Position numbers and translations under genes: made by a program. This document shows positions 13,237 to 63,321 of a DNA stretch of 64,000 bases, piece by piece. The notes beneath the pieces are model-generated. The model ran no database searches. It saw only the letters and a list, made by a program, of their open reading frames with translations, and was not told where the DNA came from. The DNA lies in the NCBI RefSeq assembly GCF_014230085.1, contig NZ_JACHVB010000020.1, positions 186,001-250,000 on the forward strand. Direction: 5' to 3'. The stretch comes from Ruficoccus amylovorans (GTDB lineage: Bacteria > Verrucomicrobiota > Verrucomicrobiia > Opitutales > Cerasicoccaceae). Each line of letters opens with the position of its first letter. Position 1 is the first letter of the stretch.

Positions 13237-13390
13237 CTGGTGTCCCGTTAGCTTAGTTCCTGATAAAAATATTTTCACCGCAGAGGCGCAAAGACGCAGA
13301 GTGACCTCTGTATCCACGAAGTTTTTTGTGCTTCATGTGCCTTTTTGTGGCCATTAACATTTGTTAAGAACTTGGCTAACACGACACTAG
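13237..13390 (+). mobile_element. CTAG-ended hairpin element, copy A
   Basis: A full copy, 154 bp, of a repeated element without coding capacity. The left end is CTGGTGTCCCGTTAGC (the first CTAG mutated to CTGG). The right end is GGCTAACACGACACTAG. The core contains GCAGAGGCGCAAAGACGCAG and a GTGCC-type arm that can pair with it. The right-hand CTAG contains the stop codon of kdgK, which reads leftward. It separates kdgK from the downstream sialidase-like gene. Confidence 0.8.
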
Positions 13391-14478
13391 CGGACGACAC
13401 GGCCCGATCCATTGCCTTTCATCAGAGCTTCAACTTCGGACCGAGTGGTGTAATTAAAATCTCCCTTGATTGAATGGGCCAGGCAAGACGCGGCTACGGC
13501 AAAGGCGATGGCATCGGCGTCCTCGGGGAAGTCACCCGAATGCAAGGCATAGACCAGACCGGCGGCGAAAGAGTCTCCCCCACCCACGCGGTCCACGATG
13601 TCGCGGATCTCGTAAGGACGGTAAGCTCCATCCCTGACAGGGGAAAAACTGGCCCGCTGGCTCGCGGTATCGTAGAGCATCGCGCCCCAGTTGTTATGGC
13701 TGGCGGAGATGCTTTCGCGGAGGGTGATGGCGATTTTCTTGATATTCGTGAATTCGGCGGCTATGGCGGCGGCGACTTGCGGGTACTTGTCGGCGGCGAC
13801 TTCGCCAGACTCGACATCTGTATCCGCGGCATGGATACAAAGCACATTGGCAGCGTCTTCCTCGTTGCCGATGAGCACGTCCACATAAGGCAGGATCGAG
13901 CGCATGGTTTTCTCTGCCAACTCACGGGCCGGGCAACCCGGCTCCCACTGCCAGAGCTTCTTACGGAAGTTCAAATCACACGACACGGTAAGTCCGGCGG
14001 AGCTGGCCTGCTGCGCGGCAAAGCGGGCCGCCTCCGCCGCCTGGGCCGAGAGTGCCGGGGTGATGCCGGAAATGTGCAGCCAGCCCGCGCCCGTTAAAAT
14101 ATCTTCCCACGCATAGCTCGAACCGGGTGTGAGCGAGACCGATGAATACCCCCGATCGTAAATGACGTTGCTTGGACGCTGGTTCGCCCCGGTCTCGACG
14201 AAGTACAGCCCCAGCCGCCCCTCGTCGGTGCGCAAGACATGTTCCACGCCCACTCCGAGTCCGCGCAAGGTGCGCAGGCAGGCATCGGCGATCGCGTGCC
14301 TCGGCAGGGCCGACACAAAGGCGCTCCTGCCGCCCAGCAGGCTGATGGACGCCGCCACATTGGCCTCGGCTCCGGCGAAGGTCAGGTCCAGCTTACCCGG
14401 ACAGGCCTGGCTGAAACGGTAAAACTGCTCCGGGGCCAGACGCCCCATGATTTCTCCAAAACAAACAACGGTCTTCAT
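13387..14478 (-). CDS. kdgK: 2-dehydro-3-deoxygluconate kinase (PfkB family)
   Basis: A 363-aa PfkB-family sugar kinase, starting VVCFGEIMGRLAPEQF as 2-keto-3-deoxygluconate kinases do. The C-terminal signature DRVGGGDSFAAG carries the catalytic Asp; the usual GAGD is GGGD here. It phosphorylates KDG to KDPG, which the aldolase encoded just upstream splits to pyruvate and glyceraldehyde 3-phosphate. Its ATG shares a base with the eda stop (TAATG), indicating translational coupling. The stop TAG is part of the CTAG end of repeat copy A. Specificity rests on family resemblance and on the partner gene. Confidence 0.9.
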   Translation of the reverse strand: MKTVVCFGEIMGRLAPEQFYRFSQACPGKLDLTFAGAEANVAASISLLGGRSAFVSALPRHAIADACLRTLRGLGVGVEHVLRTDEGRLGLYFVETGANQRPSNVIYDRGYSSVSLTPGSSYAWEDILTGAGWLHISGITPALSAQAAEAARFAAQQASSAGLTVSCDLNFRKKLWQWEPGCPARELAEKTMRSILPYVDVLIGNEEDAANVLCIHAADTDVESGEVAADKYPQVAAAIAAEFTNIKKIAITLRESISASHNNWGAMLYDTASQRASFSPVRDGAYRPYEIRDIVDRVGGGDSFAAGLVYALHSGDFPEDADAIAFAVAASCLAHSIKGDFNYTTRSEVEALMKGNGSGRVVR

Positions 14479-20988: not shown

Positions 20989-21160
20989 CCCCCGGGAGTT
21001 CCTAATAACTAAGGGTTTTCCCCATCAGAGGGCATGCGCGGGCATGCTGGCGACTGTAAAATTGATCAACCATTTCACAATTTTCGGCGCACCGGGAATT
21101 TTCTTAATTGTTTTGCTTATAAGCCGAAAGAATATTATAGAGGAAACCCTCACCAATCAC

Positions 21161-22906
21161 ATGCAGTTTTCCACCAGAAGTTCCCTGTTTCGATGCATGA
21201 GCGCCCTGGCCATCATGCTCGCGCCGGCTCTTAGCCTGGCCCAGACCTCCGCCCTTCCGGATGTCTCCACGGCCCCCGTCCTCGCGGCGGACAGCACCGC
21301 CCCGGCCACCGGCATGCCCTCCGTGATGGACCTTCCCGCCATGATCGGCCCCAAGGAAGAGTACGAAGAGGATTCCTACGCCATGATCGAGGTGGAGGAA
21401 ATCGACCGCGAAGAACTGCTCGACAAGCCCATGAACCTGGCCCGCTGGATCATGGGCGCGCGCCTCTACACCTACGAAACCGGCCACCTCGAACCCGTCA
21501 AGGAGGACTACTCCGACAATACCAGCCCGGCCTCGCTCCTGACCAAGGATGCCGACGCCCGCTACCCGATGTACCTGGATTCGTACAAATTCGTCATCGA
21601 CCTGGGCGACTACTGGATGATCAACATGTTCGAGTTCATGAACTACGGTGCCCGTGGACGAGCCCAGGTCTTTTACTCGGACGTGCTTCAGGACCCCAAC
21701 TCGGGCCAGTGGAAAGCCGCTTCGCCCATCGTGCCTTTTTCCTCTGACGGCAAGGTCTCGCTCTACCTCGGGGCGCTCGACACACGCTTTGTCATGCTCG
21801 TGATCGACAACATGGCCCACGGCGACATCGGGCCGTTCTCGGTCTACGGCGACTTGAAAATCTCCCAGATGCGCCTCGCCGGCGGCAGCCTTTCCCAGAA
21901 GGAACTCGACGCCCTCCCCCTCAAGGAGCGCGAGAAGTACCGCCCCATGCGCTACGACTGGGCCACCCTGCACAGCGGCTGCCGCGTGAGCTACGTCAGC
22001 TCCGGCGACCCACGCTACAGCAACGCCATGATCGACGACGACATGGAGACGATTTGCCAATTCAAGCAGGAGCCCGAAACCGTCGTCATCATGGACCTGA
22101 TGGAAGAGCGCAACATCAACCGCATGTCCATGCTCTTCAGTTCCGATCCGGGGCTGTTCGAAATCTATTTTGTCCACAAGCTCCCGGAGGGCCTCAAAAC
22201 CGAAAGCGACAGCGGTGCGCCCCCGGCGCAGATTATTGGCGAGTCTCCGGAGACCATTATCGACGGCGAAAGCGCCTATTATTCACCCGGCACCGGGCCC
22301 AGTCCCGAAATTTATCTGCCGTCAGCCCCCGGCTCCTTCGGGCAATGGCTGGCGCTGGCCCAGCTCGGACAGGTTTCGGACAACACCACGGACGAAATCC
22401 CGATCAAGATCACCCGACTGCCCAAAGAATTTTTCCGCGACACCAAGCCCAACCTGACCTACGTCTCCGATGGCGGCATGAACTCCTTCCGCATCGAGTT
22501 TCAGGAAATAACGGGGCGCTGGTGCATTATCCGCTTCCGTCGCAACTTCAACAGCCCCGAACAGGGCGTCAAAATTGACAAGCCCGCCGCTGGCACCCAG
22601 AGCATGCTCATGCCGATCAAGGTCGGTCCGCACGCCTACGCTCCCGCCCCCCTGAGCCTTCTCGGCCAGACCAGTGACGACGACAGCGGAATCCCCAGCG
22701 GCCTGCGCATTTACGAGGTCAGCATTTTCGGGGACATCTACGTCATCGGCAACGCCCTCGAACCGGTCAGCGGGGTACAATTCGGCAGCAACAGCCAGAC
22801 CTCAAATCCCGGCGGCGTGCCGGGCGGCGGGGGCACCCCCGGCGGCCCAACCGTGCCGCCCGTGGACCCACCCCCGCCCTACGTCCCCGACCCGGTCAGC
22901 CCGTAG
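21161..22906 (+). CDS. secreted protein of unknown function, 581 aa
   Basis: I chose the ATG at 21161, where a signal peptide begins (MQFSTRSSLFRCMSALAIML, cleavage after ALSLAQ); a Shine-Dalgarno-like AGAGGAAA lies 13-20 bases before it and TATTAT at 21133. An earlier in-frame ATG at 21044 adds an unlikely leader. The body contains a segment that looks like a carbohydrate-binding jelly roll (DYWMINMFEFMNYG, VFYSD). The C-terminus is a glycine- and proline-rich tail. I recognise no enzyme family. It is divergent from the export genes, so a matrix or polymer-binding role is plausible. Its TAG stop adjoins a remnant of the CTAG-ended repeat. Confidence 0.75.
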   Translation: MQFSTRSSLFRCMSALAIMLAPALSLAQTSALPDVSTAPVLAADSTAPATGMPSVMDLPAMIGPKEEYEEDSYAMIEVEEIDREELLDKPMNLARWIMGARLYTYETGHLEPVKEDYSDNTSPASLLTKDADARYPMYLDSYKFVIDLGDYWMINMFEFMNYGARGRAQVFYSDVLQDPNSGQWKAASPIVPFSSDGKVSLYLGALDTRFVMLVIDNMAHGDIGPFSVYGDLKISQMRLAGGSLSQKELDALPLKEREKYRPMRYDWATLHSGCRVSYVSSGDPRYSNAMIDDDMETICQFKQEPETVVIMDLMEERNINRMSMLFSSDPGLFEIYFVHKLPEGLKTESDSGAPPAQIIGESPETIIDGESAYYSPGTGPSPEIYLPSAPGSFGQWLALAQLGQVSDNTTDEIPIKITRLPKEFFRDTKPNLTYVSDGGMNSFRIEFQEITGRWCIIRFRRNFNSPEQGVKIDKPAAGTQSMLMPIKVGPHAYAPAPLSLLGQTSDDDSGIPSGLRIYEVSIFGDIYVIGNALEPVSGVQFGSNSQTSNPGGVPGGGGTPGGPTVPPVDPPPPYVPDPVSP

Positions 22907-22945
22907 AGACGTGTTAGCCAAGCTCTTGCGCTAACGGTACCCTAG
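22903..22945. repeat. remnant of the CTAG-ended element (both ends, no core)
   Basis: A 43-bp sequence that reads as the two ends of the repeat joined: ACGTGTTAGCCAAGCTCTT and then GCTAACGGTACCCTAG, the latter identical to the right end of copy B. It starts inside the stop codon of the 581-aa protein gene and shares its last CTAG with copy B. Confidence 0.6.
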
Positions 22946-23094
22946 TGTCGTGTTAGCTAAGCTCTTAATAAATGTTAATGGCCACAAAAAGGCACAAGAA
23001 GCACAAAAACTTCGTGGATACAGAGTTCGCTCTGCGTCTTTGCGCCTCTGCGGTGAAAATATTTTTATCAGAAACTAAGCTAACGGTACCCTAG
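22942..23094 (-). mobile_element. CTAG-ended hairpin element, copy B
   Basis: A full copy, 153 bp, inverted relative to the others. It runs from CTAGTGTCGTGTTAGC to GCTAACGGTACCCTAG. It fills the space between two convergent genes, and its right CTAG contains the TAG stop of the sigma-54 activator. The core is nearly the same as in the other copies. Confidence 0.8.
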
Positions 23095-24587
23095 CTCCCT
23101 GTTTTCAGTTGCAGGTACTTTTTAACCGTGCGGCGGTCGAGTTTGAGGCGGCGGCCCAGTTCCTCATAGTTGGGGATGCGGGCGTACTGCTCGGCCACGT
23201 AACGGGCCAGCAGTTCCTCGGCAGTGAATTCGCCACGGCTCCACGGACCAGCGATCCCCTCTCCGACGGCCGGCTTTTCGAGGTTTTCGGGCTGGTAGTC
23301 GCCGTGCACGGTGATGTTGCGCACGCATTGTTCCAGTTCGCGGAAGTTGCCCGGCCAGGCGTAATCGACGGGCAGCTTTTTCCCGATCCAGTCGCAGACT
23401 TCGGCCGTTACTTTTTCGCCTTCCTCCGGTCCGGCCATTTTCCGGGCGATGAAGGCGACCAGCGTTTCGAGTTCGCCGGGGGAGCCGTTGAGAATCTCCC
23501 GTAACGAGGGAGTCTGCACCCGATCGGCATTGAGCCGGAAGTAAAAGTCCTCGCGGAAGCGGCCCGCCTGGATTTCCGCCACCAGGTCTCGGTTGGTGGC
23601 GGCCATGAGCTTGCCGGTAAAAGCTTTGGGCTCGGTCTCGCCGATGGGCACGAATTGTCGCGTCTGGAGCACGCGCAGGAGTTTGATCTGAATGGCCACG
23701 TCGGTTTCCCCGATTTCATCCAGAAAGACCGTCCCGTGCGGCCCGCAGGTCTCGAAATACCCCTGACGGTTCTGAAGAGCGCCGGTAAAGGCCCCGCGCC
23801 GGTGCCCGAAAAGCTCGGACTCGATCAGCGTGGGTGAAAGGGCCGAGAGGTTGATCGGGTAAAAGGCTTTGACGAAGTCCTCGGTAAAGGCGCGTGCGTT
23901 CGGGTCGAAGGGGATGTAACGCGACAGCCCGATACCGCGGGCGACCAACTCCTTACCCGAACCGGAGGGGCCGGTAATCAGCGTGATGATGTCGCCCATG
24001 CGGTCGGCCAGCACACGCTGGTAGCGGTCCATGTCGCGGGTAAAAATCGACTGCCAGATGCGCGCCCGCAGGCGGTTGGCGGCGGGAGACTGGCCGATGA
24101 TGTAGCGATGGATATGTAAAAAAGCCCGCCGAATCTGGTCCATGACCGCGAACAGCCGCTCCAGCCCCATCCCGGCGTAACGCCCGATGAGCCCGCCTGG
24201 CAGGCCCTCCTCCACTTCGCGGACAAAGCGGTCGTAAAACCCGACCCGCTGCCCGGCGTGCCCGCGCTCGTGGGCCTGCTCGATCAAACGGTCGAACTCC
24301 GGCATGAACCGGTGGTAAATCCGCACGAAGACCATTTCCTGAAAAATCTCACGTTCGGCCTGCGTCCCCTTGCCCGAGGCGAAGCCCGGACGCGTCTGGC
24401 CGAGCAGTCGCTCCAGGTCTTCCCAAAGCGCCGACAGGCGCTCCCGCTCGCTGAGCCGCCCGTAGGCTTCGCCCAGCAGTAATTTTTCGATCTCCTCGCG
24501 CTCGGGTTCGAAGGGGTTTTGCCAGGCCAGTTGCGCGTAGCCCCGCGCGCGTTCAGCCTGTTTACCGGGGAAAAGCGTGCCTGCCAT
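23091..24587 (-). CDS. sigma-54-dependent activator with novel N-terminal domain
   Basis: A 498-aa bacterial enhancer-binding protein. The AAA+ domain has Walker A GPSGSGKE (206-213), the sigma-54 loop GAFTGA (265-270) and Walker B TVFLDE (286-291). The C-terminus carries a Fis-type helix-turn-helix (YEELGRRLKLDRRTVKKYL). The first 190 residues are helical and contain no receiver, GAF or PAS motif that I recognise, so the input signal is unknown. It lies beside the exopolysaccharide cluster, convergent with the 581-aa protein gene, and could regulate polymer production. I found no clear -24/-12 promoter nearby. Confidence 0.9.
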   Translation of the reverse strand: MAGTLFPGKQAERARGYAQLAWQNPFEPEREEIEKLLLGEAYGRLSERERLSALWEDLERLLGQTRPGFASGKGTQAEREIFQEMVFVRIYHRFMPEFDRLIEQAHERGHAGQRVGFYDRFVREVEEGLPGGLIGRYAGMGLERLFAVMDQIRRAFLHIHRYIIGQSPAANRLRARIWQSIFTRDMDRYQRVLADRMGDIITLITGPSGSGKELVARGIGLSRYIPFDPNARAFTEDFVKAFYPINLSALSPTLIESELFGHRRGAFTGALQNRQGYFETCGPHGTVFLDEIGETDVAIQIKLLRVLQTRQFVPIGETEPKAFTGKLMAATNRDLVAEIQAGRFREDFYFRLNADRVQTPSLREILNGSPGELETLVAFIARKMAGPEEGEKVTAEVCDWIGKKLPVDYAWPGNFRELEQCVRNITVHGDYQPENLEKPAVGEGIAGPWSRGEFTAEELLARYVAEQYARIPNYEELGRRLKLDRRTVKKYLQLKTGS

Positions 24588-31763: not shown

Positions 31764-31917
31764 CTAGTGTCCCGTTAGCTTAGTTCCTGATAAAAACATT
31801 TTCACCGCAGAGGCGCAAAGACGCAGAGCGAACTCTGTATCCACGAAGTTTTCTGTGCTTCTTGTGCCTTTTTGTGGCCATTAACATTTGTTAAGAACTT
31901 AGCTAACACGACACTAG
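31764..31917 (+). mobile_element. CTAG-ended hairpin element, copy C
   Basis: The cleanest isolated copy, 154 bp, with CTAG at both ends. The terminal inverted repeats begin GTGTCCCGTTAGCTTAG on the left and, as the reverse complement, GTGTCGTGTTAGCTAAG on the right. The core contains GCAGAGGCGCAAAGACGCAG and a partner arm TTCTTGTGCCTTTTTGTGG. No reading frame fits inside. Confidence 0.85.
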
Positions 31918-31968
31918 CGCGATTTAAATAGAGTCGTAGCCGGCTGCTCAAAGACCGAATGCCTACAG

Positions 31969-32003
31969 TATTTTTTGAAACGCTCTAAGCTGACAGGCCC
32001 TAG
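31969..32003 (-). repeat. degenerate element end at the trkH stop
   Basis: Read leftward from the trkH stop the sequence is CTAGGGCCTGTCAGCTTAG, which resembles the element end CTAGTGTCCCGTTAGCTTAG with several changes and one deletion. It suggests an old, decayed insertion at this stop codon. Confidence 0.4.
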
Positions 32004-33475
32004 CTGAACCGCTTCCAGAGCGAAGGGGTAAAGAGCACCAGAACGGCATACAGCTCCAAGCGTCCCATAATCATGAGCAGCGCCAGGAATATCTTGGCCG
32101 CCTCGCTGAAATACGAGTAGTTCAGGGTTGGGCCGACCTCGTTGAAGCCCGGCCCGACGTTGAACAGGCAGGCCAGCATGGCCGAAAAGCAGCCCTCGAA
32201 ACTGAGTTCGTGCTGGAGCAAGGCGAGCACCGGCAACGAGAGCAGACAGACGATGGCTAACAGTACGATGTAGTTGATAACGTTTTCCTGGTCGTCCTTG
32301 TCGAGGATGCGGCCATTCATGTGCATCGGGCGGACAACCCGCGTCCGGAATGCCCGCTCGATCTGTTGGCGGGCCACCTTCAGGGCCACGACCACACGTA
32401 CGACCTTGGTGCCGCCACCGGTCGAGCCCGAGCAACCGCCGACGATCATCGCCATCATCAGGAGCGTATGGACGACATTGGGCCACATCTGGAAGTCCGC
32501 CGTGGAAAAGCCCGTGCTCGTCATCAGCGAAACCGCCTGAAAGGTGCTCACGCGCAGGGCCTCATTGAAATCGCCCACCACACCTTCGCCCAGCAGGATG
32601 AGCGTGATCAGGATGCTGAAGGTCCCCATGATGATCAGGTAGGCAATAAACTCCGTGTTGCGCCAGACATGACGGAAGTCGCATTTGACCATGCGCAACA
32701 TGACAAAAAAGCTCGTGCCGCCCAGGGCCATAAAAAGCGTCACCATCCACTCGATCGTCGGACTCTGAAAGGCCCCTACGCTGCTGTTGTAGGTGCTGAA
32801 CCCTCCCGTCGAAACCGTGGCGAACATGTGGCAGAGCGCGTCAAACCAGTTCATCCCGCACAGGTGAAAAACCACCGCGCAGAGTGCCGACAGCCCGAGG
32901 TACACGTACATGATCTGAAGCACGCCGTGCTGCACACGCCCCGAGTCGATGTCGGTCGAGTGGCCCGAGGATTCGTTGGAAAAGAGGATTTTCGCCCCCG
33001 CGCCGAGCGAGGACAGCAGTGCCACGAAGAACACCACCACCCCGAGGCCGCCGATCCACTGGCTCAGGCAACGCCAGAATAGCAGGCTGGTCGGGATGCT
33101 CTCCAGATTGCTGAAGACCGAGGCACCCGTGGTGGTCAGGCCCGAGGCGGTTTCAAAGATCGAGTCCGCAACGGAGGCCTCCTCCAGAATGAGATAGTAC
33201 GGGAGCGCGCCGATCACGCTGGCCAGGATCCACCCCAGCCCGATCACGGCGAGGGCTTCCTTGCGCAGGAGCTTGTTACCCGCGCCACGGCCCAGCAGCA
33301 TGCAGATCAGGGCCAGCGCCACCGCCACCGCGCTGCAAATCAGCCATTCGTCAAGGACGCCGTCCTCGCGCACCGAGGTGTCAAAGGTCTGCCCCATCCC
33401 CAAGCAGATGAGGAAGGCGACGGCCAGCGTCGTCACGATGACGCTGAGCAGTTTACTAATGATCCGGTAGTTCAT
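32000..33475 (-). CDS. trkH: Trk/Ktr-type potassium uptake channel TrkH
   Basis: A 491-aa TrkH/KtrB channel subunit with four M1-P-M2 repeats. The selectivity-filter regions are visible: ASGLTTTGASVF, FATVSTGGFSTYN, AVSLMTSTGFSTADF and FNVGPGFNEVGPT. It imports K+ with the gating ring formed by TrkA, encoded immediately upstream on the same strand with a 6-base gap. The TAG stop is part of a CTAG followed by a decayed repeat end. Confidence 0.96.
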   Translation of the reverse strand: MNYRIISKLLSVIVTTLAVAFLICLGMGQTFDTSVREDGVLDEWLICSAVAVALALICMLLGRGAGNKLLRKEALAVIGLGWILASVIGALPYYLILEEASVADSIFETASGLTTTGASVFSNLESIPTSLLFWRCLSQWIGGLGVVVFFVALLSSLGAGAKILFSNESSGHSTDIDSGRVQHGVLQIMYVYLGLSALCAVVFHLCGMNWFDALCHMFATVSTGGFSTYNSSVGAFQSPTIEWMVTLFMALGGTSFFVMLRMVKCDFRHVWRNTEFIAYLIIMGTFSILITLILLGEGVVGDFNEALRVSTFQAVSLMTSTGFSTADFQMWPNVVHTLLMMAMIVGGCSGSTGGGTKVVRVVVALKVARQQIERAFRTRVVRPMHMNGRILDKDDQENVINYIVLLAIVCLLSLPVLALLQHELSFEGCFSAMLACLFNVGPGFNEVGPTLNYSYFSEAAKIFLALLMIMGRLELYAVLVLFTPSLWKRFS

Positions 33476-48644: not shown

Positions 48645-48906
48645 GCGAGAGGGTGTTTTTTAAAAAAAACACCCTCTCGCGCTCTCCCTGAAAAACTTTT
48701 GAAACGGAACTTCGTTCCTGCGCGAGAACGGTGCTCGAGGATATTTTAGCCAAGTTCCTGGCATAAATTGAGAGTGCAACTCAGTTTGGAGGCTCCTCTG
48801 GGATTGCTGCATTCAGCGACGCTGAAAGCAGCAATCCCAGACGCGATGCGATAGCATCGAAAGTGCAGACTTCGTCTGCCGCAGGGTTTGGGGGCGCGGA
48901 GCCCCC
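48645..48906 (+). repeat. six-hairpin structured element, copy 1
   Basis: This element follows the polymerase gene and is repeated at 63038-63286. Its hairpins are: a 17-bp stem starting GCGAGAGGGTGTTTTTT (48645-48680); GGAAC-TTC-GTTCC (48706-48718); a long stem CTGGGATTGCTGC / GCAGCAATCCCAG with inner TTCAGC / GCTGAA (48798-48840); CGATGC-GATA-GCATCG (48844-48859); GCAGAC-TTC-GTCTGC (48865-48879); and GGGGGC-GCGGA-GCCCCC (48890-48906). The region between the second and third hairpins differs between copies. No coding frame. With repeat copies D and E it accounts for the 613-base gap 48616-49228. Confidence 0.8.
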
Positions 48907-48928
48907 AAAAAAGTTTTTAAAACATGCG

Positions 48929-49082
48929 CTAGTGTCCCGTTAGCTTAGTTCCTGATAAAAATATTTTCACCGCAGAGGCGCAAAGACGCAGAGCGAACTC
49001 TGTATCCACGAAGTTTTCTGTGCTTCTTGTGCCTTTTTGTGGCCATTAACATTTGTTAAGAACTTAGCTAACACGACACTAG
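48929..49082 (+). mobile_element. CTAG-ended hairpin element, copy D
   Basis: A full 154-bp copy that begins just after the structured element and shares its right CTAG with the left CTAG of copy E, giving a head-to-tail tandem. Its sequence is almost the same as copy C. Confidence 0.85.
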
Positions 49083-49232
49083 TGTCCCGTTAGCTTAGTT
49101 CCTGATAAAAATATTTTCACCGCAGAGGCGCAAAGACGCAGAGCAACCTCTGTATCCACGAAGTTTTCTGTGCTTCTTGTGCCTTTTTGTGGCCATTAAC
49201 ATTTAGCAAGAACTTAGCTAACACAACACTAG
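49079..49232 (+). mobile_element. CTAG-ended hairpin element, copy E
   Basis: A full 154-bp copy in tandem with copy D. The right end reads ACACAACACTAG, with small changes from the other copies, including TTTAGCAAG for TTTGTTAAG. Its last CTAG contains the TAG stop of the leftward SLC13-type permease. Confidence 0.85.
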
Positions 49233-51043
49233 AAATGCCAGAACAGCGGGATGAGGATCATGCTGCCGATGAAGTAGAGCACGTTTAAGGGGATGCCGAC
49301 GCGGGCGAAATCCCCGAAGCGATAGCCGCCGACGCCATAGACGTAGGTATTCGTCTGGTAGCCGATGGGGGTGGCAAAGCTGGCTGAGGAGCCGATACAG
49401 GCCGCGATGATAAAGGGCCGGGGATCTACGCCGAGCATTTCCCCCAAGGCCAATGCCACCGGGGCCATCAGCACGACGGTGGCATTATTGGAAAGCACTT
49501 CGGTCATGATGCTCGTGGCCAGGTAAACAAAAGCCAGCATGACAATCGGCTGCCACGCCTGCGGAAAGCCGTCCACCAGGTGTACAAGCTGGGCCGAAGC
49601 CAGCTCGGTGGCCCCGGAGTCCTGCAAGGCCAGGCCGAGGCCAAGCATCCCGTAAATGAGGATGAGGATGCGCCACTCGATAGCGGAATAGGCGTCCTTG
49701 GGCTTGATCGTGCCGGTGACAAAGAGGATGGCCACGGCCAGCACCGCCATGGCGAAAATCGGCACGTCCAGAAAGGTCACCGCGCCGATCATCCCGGCGA
49801 TCACGGCGATGACGAGCGGCATCCGGCGGCGCATGTCCTGGGCGGGGAGCTGCGGACGGTCGAGCAGGATGATGTCGTCGGTGTTGTGCATGTTCTCGAT
49901 CGCCTTGTCCGTGCCCATCATCAGCAGCGTGTCACCGAAGTCCAACGGCAGGGTTTCGAGCTTTTCGCGCACATTGCGCCCGCGCCGGTGCACGGCCAGG
50001 ATAATCATGCGGTAGCGCTGCCGGAAGTTGATCTCGCGGATGGTCTTGCCGACGATGGTGGACATCGGGCCGATCACGCCCTCGACGATGGCCCCCTCGT
50101 GCGCGGAGATCGGTTCCAGGTCCAGGCCGCGTTCGCCCACGAAGTCGATGCCGGTGTTTTCGCGGGCCTGAATGATGGCCGTCGGGCGGCAGGCCAGCAC
50201 GAGCCGGTCCCCGGCCTGAAGGCTCTGATGCGGCAGGTCGCCGCCGAGGGCCACCCCGTCGCGGATGATTTCCAGCAGCCGGATGCCGCGCGTGCGCTTG
50301 AGCCCGGACTCGCTGAAGCTCTGCCCGTCCAGCTCGGTGCCCTGCTTGACGTAGGCTTCGGTGATGTACTCCTTGCGCTCCTCCTCGGAGAGGATGGCGG
50401 TCAGGGTTTCGCGCACGGGCAGGATTTTTTTACCGAAAAAAGCCAGGTAGGCGGTCCCCAGCACCATCAGGGGTATGCCGACCAGCGCCAGCTCAAACAT
50501 GCCCAACGGGGGTTGGCCGTGGTCCTTGATAATACCGCTCATGAGGATGTTTGTGCTCGTGCCCATGAGCGTACACACGCCCCCGAAAATCGACAGGTAC
50601 GAGAGCGGGATCAGCAGTTGGGAGGCGGGGGTCTTCATCTGCCGGGCCAGCGAAATGATGACCGGCATGAACACCACCACGACGGGCGTGTTATTGATAA
50701 AGGCCGAAATCCCGCCCACGCCGATGGCCAGCGCAACGATAAAAACCCCGTAGGGAAGCGCCGTCAGCTTCCCCAGTTTTTGTGCCATCAACTCGATGGC
50801 CCCGCATTTTTCCAGCGCCACGCTGATGATGAACATCGCCCCGATGGTCAAGGGGGCCGAGTTGGCAAAGACATTAACCAGCTCTCCGACCTCGGGCCAA
50901 TGGTCCGAACCGCTGACCATGCTGACAACCAGCAGGACGGCAAAGACACAGACAGCCGTCACATCGACGGAGACCTTTTCGGCGATGAAACTGGCCAGCG
51001 CGGCCAGAAGAATGAACAGGACGGCTATGATTTCCCAAGTCAT
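49229..51043 (-). CDS. SLC13-family permease with TrkA-C domains
   Basis: A roughly 604-aa transporter (from MTWEIIAVLF; an in-frame ATG at 51067 adds eight residues). It has two blocks of membrane helices of the CitT/ArsB-like permease type (INNTPVVVVFMPVI in the first, LSNNATVVLMAPVALALGEML in the second) around two soluble TrkA-C domains (about 200-370). Relatives take up sulfate or dicarboxylates with Na+; the substrate is unknown. The TAG stop is provided by the CTAG end of repeat copy E. Confidence 0.92.
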   Translation of the reverse strand: MTWEIIAVLFILLAALASFIAEKVSVDVTAVCVFAVLLVVSMVSGSDHWPEVGELVNVFANSAPLTIGAMFIISVALEKCGAIELMAQKLGKLTALPYGVFIVALAIGVGGISAFINNTPVVVVFMPVIISLARQMKTPASQLLIPLSYLSIFGGVCTLMGTSTNILMSGIIKDHGQPPLGMFELALVGIPLMVLGTAYLAFFGKKILPVRETLTAILSEEERKEYITEAYVKQGTELDGQSFSESGLKRTRGIRLLEIIRDGVALGGDLPHQSLQAGDRLVLACRPTAIIQARENTGIDFVGERGLDLEPISAHEGAIVEGVIGPMSTIVGKTIREINFRQRYRMIILAVHRRGRNVREKLETLPLDFGDTLLMMGTDKAIENMHNTDDIILLDRPQLPAQDMRRRMPLVIAVIAGMIGAVTFLDVPIFAMAVLAVAILFVTGTIKPKDAYSAIEWRILILIYGMLGLGLALQDSGATELASAQLVHLVDGFPQAWQPIVMLAFVYLATSIMTEVLSNNATVVLMAPVALALGEMLGVDPRPFIIAACIGSSASFATPIGYQTNTYVYGVGGYRFGDFARVGIPLNVLYFIGSMILIPLFWHF

Positions 51044-51247
51044 GACAGCAGGCGAAAGGCAGAACATGCGCCGATCCGCCCAAAAGCCAAGGTTTCTTTT
51101 TCTCGCGGGCGTGTTGTCCCCGCCTCCCTCTTCTTTCTGCTCGCCTGCATTTTAGTAAGGCCGCGCCGGGAGCGTGTTGAGCACAAACGCCGCTTAGCAG
51201 TTGTGTCCGCCAGGGAAAGCCGTTAGCGTCCATCACTTTCTCCGGTT

Positions 51248-55621: not shown

Positions 55622-55652
55622 TTTTTCACCGCAGAGGCGCAAAGACGCAGAG
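55622..55652 (+). repeat. isolated core motif of the CTAG-ended element
   Basis: The motif GCAGAGGCGCAAAGACGCAG, preceded by TTTTTCACC, occurs here without the terminal inverted repeats. The same motif is found inverted at 57115-57144. Confidence 0.7.
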
Positions 55653-55708
55653 CGCAAACGTGGGCAAATTTCGTCCCTGGATGGGAGCATCAATAAGAAG
55701 AGGTTGCC

Positions 55709-55735: not shown

Positions 55736-55890
55736 TAAGGCCACTGGCAAGCCCACAAAAGATTCCCCCCCTCGCAAGACCTTTGCGTCTTTGCGCCTTT
55801 GTGGTAAATCCAGCTCTTCACCTCCGGGGACAGGCCAGCCGCAGCCAATGCCTCCGCCCGCGCACCGGAAGCCTGGCCCGGCAAAGATAG

Positions 55891-57051: not shown

Positions 57052-57114
57052 ACTACTCATACCTAAAGACCTTCAAAACAACCACCAACACAGCTGCCGC
57101 TCGTCCTTTTCCCC

Positions 57115-57144
57115 CTCTGCGTCTTTGCGCCTCTGCGGTAAAAA
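57115..57144 (-). repeat. isolated core motif, inverted
   Basis: CTCTGCGTCTTTGCGCCTCT and following bases are the reverse complement of the core motif of the CTAG-ended element. It lies 38 bases before the hemE start codon and lacks the terminal repeats. Confidence 0.65.
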
Positions 57145-57181
57145 CACCTCTTTCCACTTCGTATCCATTTTCCACGACACC

Positions 57182-63037: not shown

Positions 63038-63286
63038 GCGAGAGGGCGTTTTTTGGAAAAAACACCCTCTCGCGCTCTCCCCAAAAAACTTTTAAGACGG
63101 AACTTCGTTCCTTCAGAAGGACGGCAAGCCTCAAGGTCCTCGCATAAGTGCTTGGGGCAACTCTCTTTAGATGCTCTCTGGGATTGCTGCTTTCAGCACT
63201 GCTGAAAGCAGCAATCCCAGACGCGATGCGGTAGCATCGAAAGTGCAGACTTCGTCTGCCGCAGGGTTTGGGGGCGCGGAGCCCCC
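63038..63286 (+). repeat. six-hairpin structured element, copy 2
   Basis: The second copy of the element at 48645-48906, in the same position relative to an upstream gene (37 bases after the stop). The third hairpin is perfect here: a 20-bp stem beginning CTGGGATTGCTGCTTTCAGC with a 3-base loop (63178-63220). The later hairpins (63224-63239, 63245-63259, 63270-63286) are almost identical to copy 1, while the stretch between the second and third hairpins differs. The first hairpin has one C-A mismatch. It occupies most of the 320-base gap 63002-63321; I see no gene there. Confidence 0.8.
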
Positions 63287-63321
63287 AAAATATCTAGCAA
63301 GGACTCTGGGAAGGGAGGGCA

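Follow-up and report, generated by a model that had tools for sequence, protein, structure and literature searches.

The TAG stop codons at which a 154-nt palindromic repeat ends in Ruficoccus amylovorans are, with a probability of about 0.92, landing sites of a MITE of the known IS630 family, whose target word CTAG concentrates at stops. The MITE itself is new; the IS630 family and the target word were already known. Stops as such are not preferred, and landings at them follow the supply of harmless CTAGs. Directly observed were the insertion sequence (IS), the ends that it shares with the MITE, the CTAG flanks of its homologues, the census of CTAG sites, and the agreement between observed and expected numbers of stops. 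The stretch of 64,000 nt analyzed here, called the window, is C20:186001-250000 of a 4.5 Mb genome in 64 contigs.

Repeat copies in the window and the stop codons at their ends

Five near-full copies of the repeat were found in the window, together with remnants (Table 1). Copies A, B, and E are bounded on their outer side by the CTAGs at 13387-13390, 23091-23094, and 49229-49232, and the minus-strand stops of kdgK, the sigma-54 activator gene, and the SLC13 permease gene are the first three bases of these CTAGs (CTA on the plus strand). The original prediction had placed the three stops there, and the coordinates were confirmed on the sequence. The same is true of two further stops that it had put next to element debris. 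The stop of the ORF at 21044-22906 abuts the 43-nt remnant; it is part of a GTAG, not a CTAG, and falls precisely on the remnant's tip (TAGAGACGTGTTAGCC vs. TAGTGTCGTGTTAGCT). The length of 581 aa given earlier for its product depends on the choice of start, the ORF having 620 codons from the first ATG and 570 from the start chosen by the gene caller. The trkH stop is the TAG of the CTAG at 32000-32003 beside a decayed end (CTAAGCTGACAGGCCCTAG vs. CTAAGCTAACGGGACACTAG). The distal end of copy A had to be corrected from CTAG to CTGG. A GGTACC end variant is common to the remnant and copy B, and an older history of copy B is possible because the outer flank of the remnant is GTAG. No Rfam match was found anywhere in the window.

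Table 1. Repeat copies, remnants, and adjoining genes (positions are those of the window).
Feature	Position	Strand	Remarks
MITE copy A	13237..13390	+	154 nt, 95-96% to reference; right CTAG 13387-13390 holds the kdgK stop; left end CTGG
kdgK-like PfkB, KDG kinase ORF	13387..14478	-	stop TAG 13387-13389 inside the CTAG of copy A
ORF without Pfam or NCBIfam match	21044..22906	+	stop TAG 22904-22906 at the tip of the remnant
43-nt MITE remnant, internally deleted	22903..22945	+	both terminal repeats fused; adjoins copy B
MITE copy B	22942..23094	-	outer CTAG 23091-23094 holds the sigma-54 activator stop
Sigma-54 interaction-domain activator ORF	23091..24587	-	stop TAG 23091-23093
MITE copy C	31764..31917	+	99%; both ends CTAG; no stop there
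Decayed element end	31980..32003	-	CTAG 32000-32003 holds the trkH stop
trkH ORF	32000..33475	-	stop TAG 32000-32002
Second family, truncated copy	48746..48911	+	beside copy D
MITE copy D	48929..49082	+	reference copy
MITE copy E	49079..49232	+	tandem with D, one CTAG common to both; outer CTAG holds the SLC13 stop
SLC13/DASS-type permease ORF	49229..51067	-	stop TAG 49229-49231
Second family, truncated copy	63131..63308	+	convergent gene gap

The MITE and its IS630-family partner

About 20 near-full copies of the repeat, 93-100% identical, are present genome-wide. The repeat is short and multicopy, has terminal inverted repeats, and carries no transposase gene. The same genome contains an IS of 1,148 bp (on C1, C2, C19, and C52), all four copies of which lie at contig ends, as expected because an assembly breaks at a repeat. 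The IS encodes one transposase, a 359-aa protein that matches NF033545 (1e-78, 264.8 bits vs. a cut-off of 100) and DDE_3 (3.9e-21) and contains HTH domains; by these matches it is classed as an IS630-family transposase. The termini of the IS and the MITE are 96% identical over 25 bp (24 of the 25 terminal bases), and the IS, like most MITE copies, has CTAG at either end. Since the MITE ends match those of the IS and the IS protein is assigned to the IS630 family, the repeat is a MITE of an IS630 element. The right-hand 31 nt of copy E are identical to the left end of the IS (31/31), which we read as a trace of exchange between IS and MITE. A partial match to the transposase (69%) was detected in Cerasicoccus frondis. 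No similar DNA was found in the plasmids searched, and the core 24-mer was found in one viral contig only.

CTAG as the insertion target

Homologous ISs from Verrucomicrobia, Proteobacteria, Cyanobacteria, Actinobacteria, and other groups carry CTAG on both sides in 61 of 68 cases, and nearly all start with GTGT or a close variant. In the available parts of the literature, the IS630 target is given as the TA within CTAG (Tenzen and Ohtsubo, 1991, as cited in PMC2170065, PMC6811581). IS630 elements are described there as duplicating the target TA, and cut-and-paste transposition by the transposase has been demonstrated for ISY100 (PMC2170065).

We propose that the MITE is mobilized in trans by the 1,148-bp IS630-family (Tc1/mariner-type) IS, whose transposase would insert at the TA within CTAG and duplicate this TA. 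A target N1-TA-N4 would become N1-TA-[G...C]-TA-N4, and CTAG would become C-TA-[G...C]-TA-G. With G as its first base and C as its last, the element would rebuild CTAG at both ends and leave a TAG stop preceded by C unchanged; by the same junction logic, outer CTAGs on either side imply CTAG as the target. In this genome CTAG is rare, and its occurrences are concentrated at stops and between genes. Selection would remove insertions in genes, and gaps between convergent genes would tolerate insertions best, so that stops make up ∼40% of the surviving sites without being sought. It is unlikely in our estimate that the CTAG preference of IS630 is an evolved self-restraint, in which hosts purge CTAG from genes but retain it in stops, so that the target word steers insertions to places where the protein is unharmed, and the element has conserved its terminal G and C for restoring the stop.

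Bias toward convergent gaps

A second palindromic family, CTAG-ended and about 208 nt long, was found at 32 places by profile search, 24 of them between convergent genes. It occurs on C12, C13, C20, C35, C60, and C64 (e.g., C20:375469-375678), and at C64:152125-152334 each end of the element coincides with the end of a flanking gene. An IS at C25:968-2129 has TGTGCGGTTACC ends in common with some copies and may be the partner of this family.

No insertion was found within any called gene (P about 0.001-0.002). Copies of the two families lie in convergent gaps in 35 of 49 cases vs. 19% of non-coding CTAGs (P = 2e-15). The actual bias is toward convergent gaps and away from coding sequence. Such a strong bias could mean that copies between convergent genes are kept as bidirectional terminators or as 3' mRNA stabilizers replacing the displaced 3' UTR, and both MITE strands indeed fold into a long, strong hairpin (z -4.5 and -7.1). 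However, any palindromic MITE gives such a hairpin. An intrinsic-terminator pattern was found in none of the 17 first-family copies, and the 32 second-family copies gave five strand hits vs. 2.6 in shuffles, which is not above chance. Pneumococcal RUP, SPRITE, and IS copies share the convergent bias; in the part of the source available to us it is read as a sign of parasitic elements and of weaker selection downstream of genes (PMC3049150). We consider a terminator or stabilizer role improbable.

Census of CTAG sites and stop codons

CTAG sites were counted in 2.75 Mb (61% of the genome), with genes taken from our own codon-usage caller. The tetranucleotide is depleted, with 882 observed vs. 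2,374 expected under a Markov model. Outside the copies there are 837 CTAGs: 262 coding, 191 at stops (three of which also overlap another gene), and 384 intergenic. The census thus bears out the statement that CTAG is rare in coding sequence. Stops account for 27-33% of non-coding CTAGs, the lower figure coming from a stricter gene set with all element-related sites removed. By gene orientation, this share is 54% in convergent gaps and 29% in tandem gaps, and no stops occur in divergent gaps.

Insertions were scored at 17 and 19 sites for the two families, which are small counts and exclude the IS copies at contig ends. Both flanks could be read at 17 MITE sites; seven of these coincide with stops, and 7.4 would be expected from the orientation of the surrounding genes. 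The stops of pheT, gluQRS, and two further genes likewise lie at a MITE end. For the second family the figure is nine of 19 copies with a determinable end vs. 9.2 expected given orientation. Together, 16 of 36 sites are at stops and 16.6 are expected (P = 0.64). Stop placement is therefore more than chance with respect to random positions and not with respect to CTAG availability. The original prediction suggested that stops may serve as safe docking sites and named the distribution of all CTAG sites as the yardstick. Measured against that distribution, with coding insertions set aside and orientation allowed for, placement was no different, and a preference for stops over other harmless CTAGs was not supported.

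It is very improbable, on these counts, that stop codons or gene 3' ends are actively sought by the element beyond CTAG, e.g., through a link to translation or transcription termination. With orientation ignored, stops do show a mild excess (44% of two-family sites vs. 27% of non-coding CTAGs, P = 0.02), and it vanishes once orientation is included. A further argument against active preference comes from the IS homologues in other phyla: ORFs of 110 codons or more terminate at 23 of 120 element ends, and for the other CTAGs of these flanks the figure is 24 of 122. One-sided decayed (TIR-like) ends are commoner at stop CTAGs (19/188) than at intergenic CTAGs (9/384) and could be taken in favor of such a preference. 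The evidence supports, but does not prove, that this excess reflects stops preserving CTAG together with second-family copies in convergent gaps. A plain one-sided flank count was rejected as a measure of stop preference: its excess was gone with orientation taken into account and the second family listed without requiring an intact CTAG.

A known target word and the codon landscape of the host can thus give striking stop landings without stop recognition, and numbers can now be put on this effect (27-33% of harmless CTAGs are stops, and 54% between convergent genes). This calls for caution in inferring function from such placements. For annotators, a gene whose stop codon is touched by an IS630-type element has in most cases not been truncated by it.

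Stop codons of orthologues

In the kdgK orthologues the protein stops at the same residue, with RVVR* (R[VI]VR* or equivalent) followed by TGA, TAA, or TAG. SLC13 orthologues in five relatives also end at the same residue, and two congeneric SLC13 genes represent empty sites, with an intact TTC-TAG and no element. For the sigma-54 activator, seven orthologues terminate no more than a few residues away from its own end. The kdgK and SLC13 stops were not made by the element, as their orthologues share the end residue. The idea that CTAG stops are harmless docking sites which leave the protein unchanged is upheld by these orthologue ends.

The opposite course, in which the terminal G after TA turns Tyr (TAC/TAT) or a TAA stop into TAG, is permitted by the junction logic, fits L280 (Streptomyces; gene side CTAG, other side CTAA, as a TAA changed to TAG would give), and would have cost the sigma-54 protein eight residues if the remnant and copy B were one insertion in GTAG, but it is hardly credible given that CTAG at both outer ends implies a CTAG target and that the orthologues reach the same residue (kdgK, SLC13) or within a few residues of it (sigma-54) with a TGA, TAA, or TAG of their own.

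Comparison with known elements

Tn7 and integrative elements of gene 3' ends keep the gene product intact by inserting at or just past the end of the gene. A dedicated targeting protein or integrase guides them to particular genes, whereas CTAG is the sole specificity seen for the window MITE. Gene-specific 3'-end targeting of the Tn7 kind was considered and rejected, as the genes hit are unrelated (kdgK, the sigma-54 activator gene, SLC13, pheT, gluQRS, and others) and there is one transposase.

Among the closest known elements is IS630 of Shigella sonnei (IS630/Tc1/mariner), which has a transposase of the same family (DDE) and uses the TA in CTAG (PMC2170065, PMC6811581). Host and sequence differ, and the window holds non-autonomous 154-nt copies only. 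Stop-codon landings are not among the features described for the Shigella element in the available parts of these sources.

Three short repeats invite comparison. RUP of Streptococcus pneumoniae (107 bp) shares its ends with IS630-Spn1 and is, like our MITE, short, non-autonomous, and enriched between convergent genes (PMC3049150). The likeness rests on its description, and a CTAG target is not stated for RUP in the available part of that source. BOX, from the same species, supplies the stop of 36 CDSs without strong evidence of truncation (PMC3049150). Unlike the MITE, BOX is modular and has some similarity to the ends of ISSpn2, not IS630, and the accessible text describes no CTAG mechanism for it (PMC3049150). 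MITEPsy1 of Pseudomonas syringae is a 100-nt MITE with CTAG or YTAA as its insertion site; it differs from the window MITE in its four-base duplication and probable IS5-type relation (PMC3189936). The placement had been put forward as without precedent. This no longer holds, as CTAG targeting by IS630 (PMC2170065, PMC6811581) and the 36 stops supplied by BOX (PMC3049150) are published in the parts of these sources available to us. A literature search limited to titles and abstracts returned no description of IS630 or CTAG elements placed at stop codons.

Tandem insertions, shared sites, and solitary cores

IS-MITE tandems at C1:1-1298 and C2:1-1298 and the MITE-MITE tandem at window 48929-49232 each have a single CTAG common to both members. 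In this arrangement, element ends are themselves targets of further insertions. One and the same CTAG, in two copies of a common sequence, is occupied by a MITE at C60:3456-3609 and by the full IS at C52:186512-187659 and C19:53045-54192; the left flanks are alike over ∼90 nt and the right flanks over ∼9 nt only. We take this as a sign that a single target was used repeatedly. At C35:512670-512826 an 11-nt direct repeat (CTAGGTCGTGC) stands in the flanks and the element lacks its left terminal bases, pointing to an unusual insertion or to later repair.

A small palindromic repeat (AGCGTTTYAAAAAATACTGTAGCCAC) lies beside or inside three MITE copies (window 31917-32000; C60:105845-105997; C60:130369 on). 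The MITE core TTTTCACCGCAGAGGCGCAAAGACGCAGAG also occurs on its own, at window 55623-55654, 55780-55818, and 57114-57152, as well as on C43, C34, C12, and C14. These solitary cores often form inverted pairs ∼110-170 nt apart, with identities of up to 100% in a congener.
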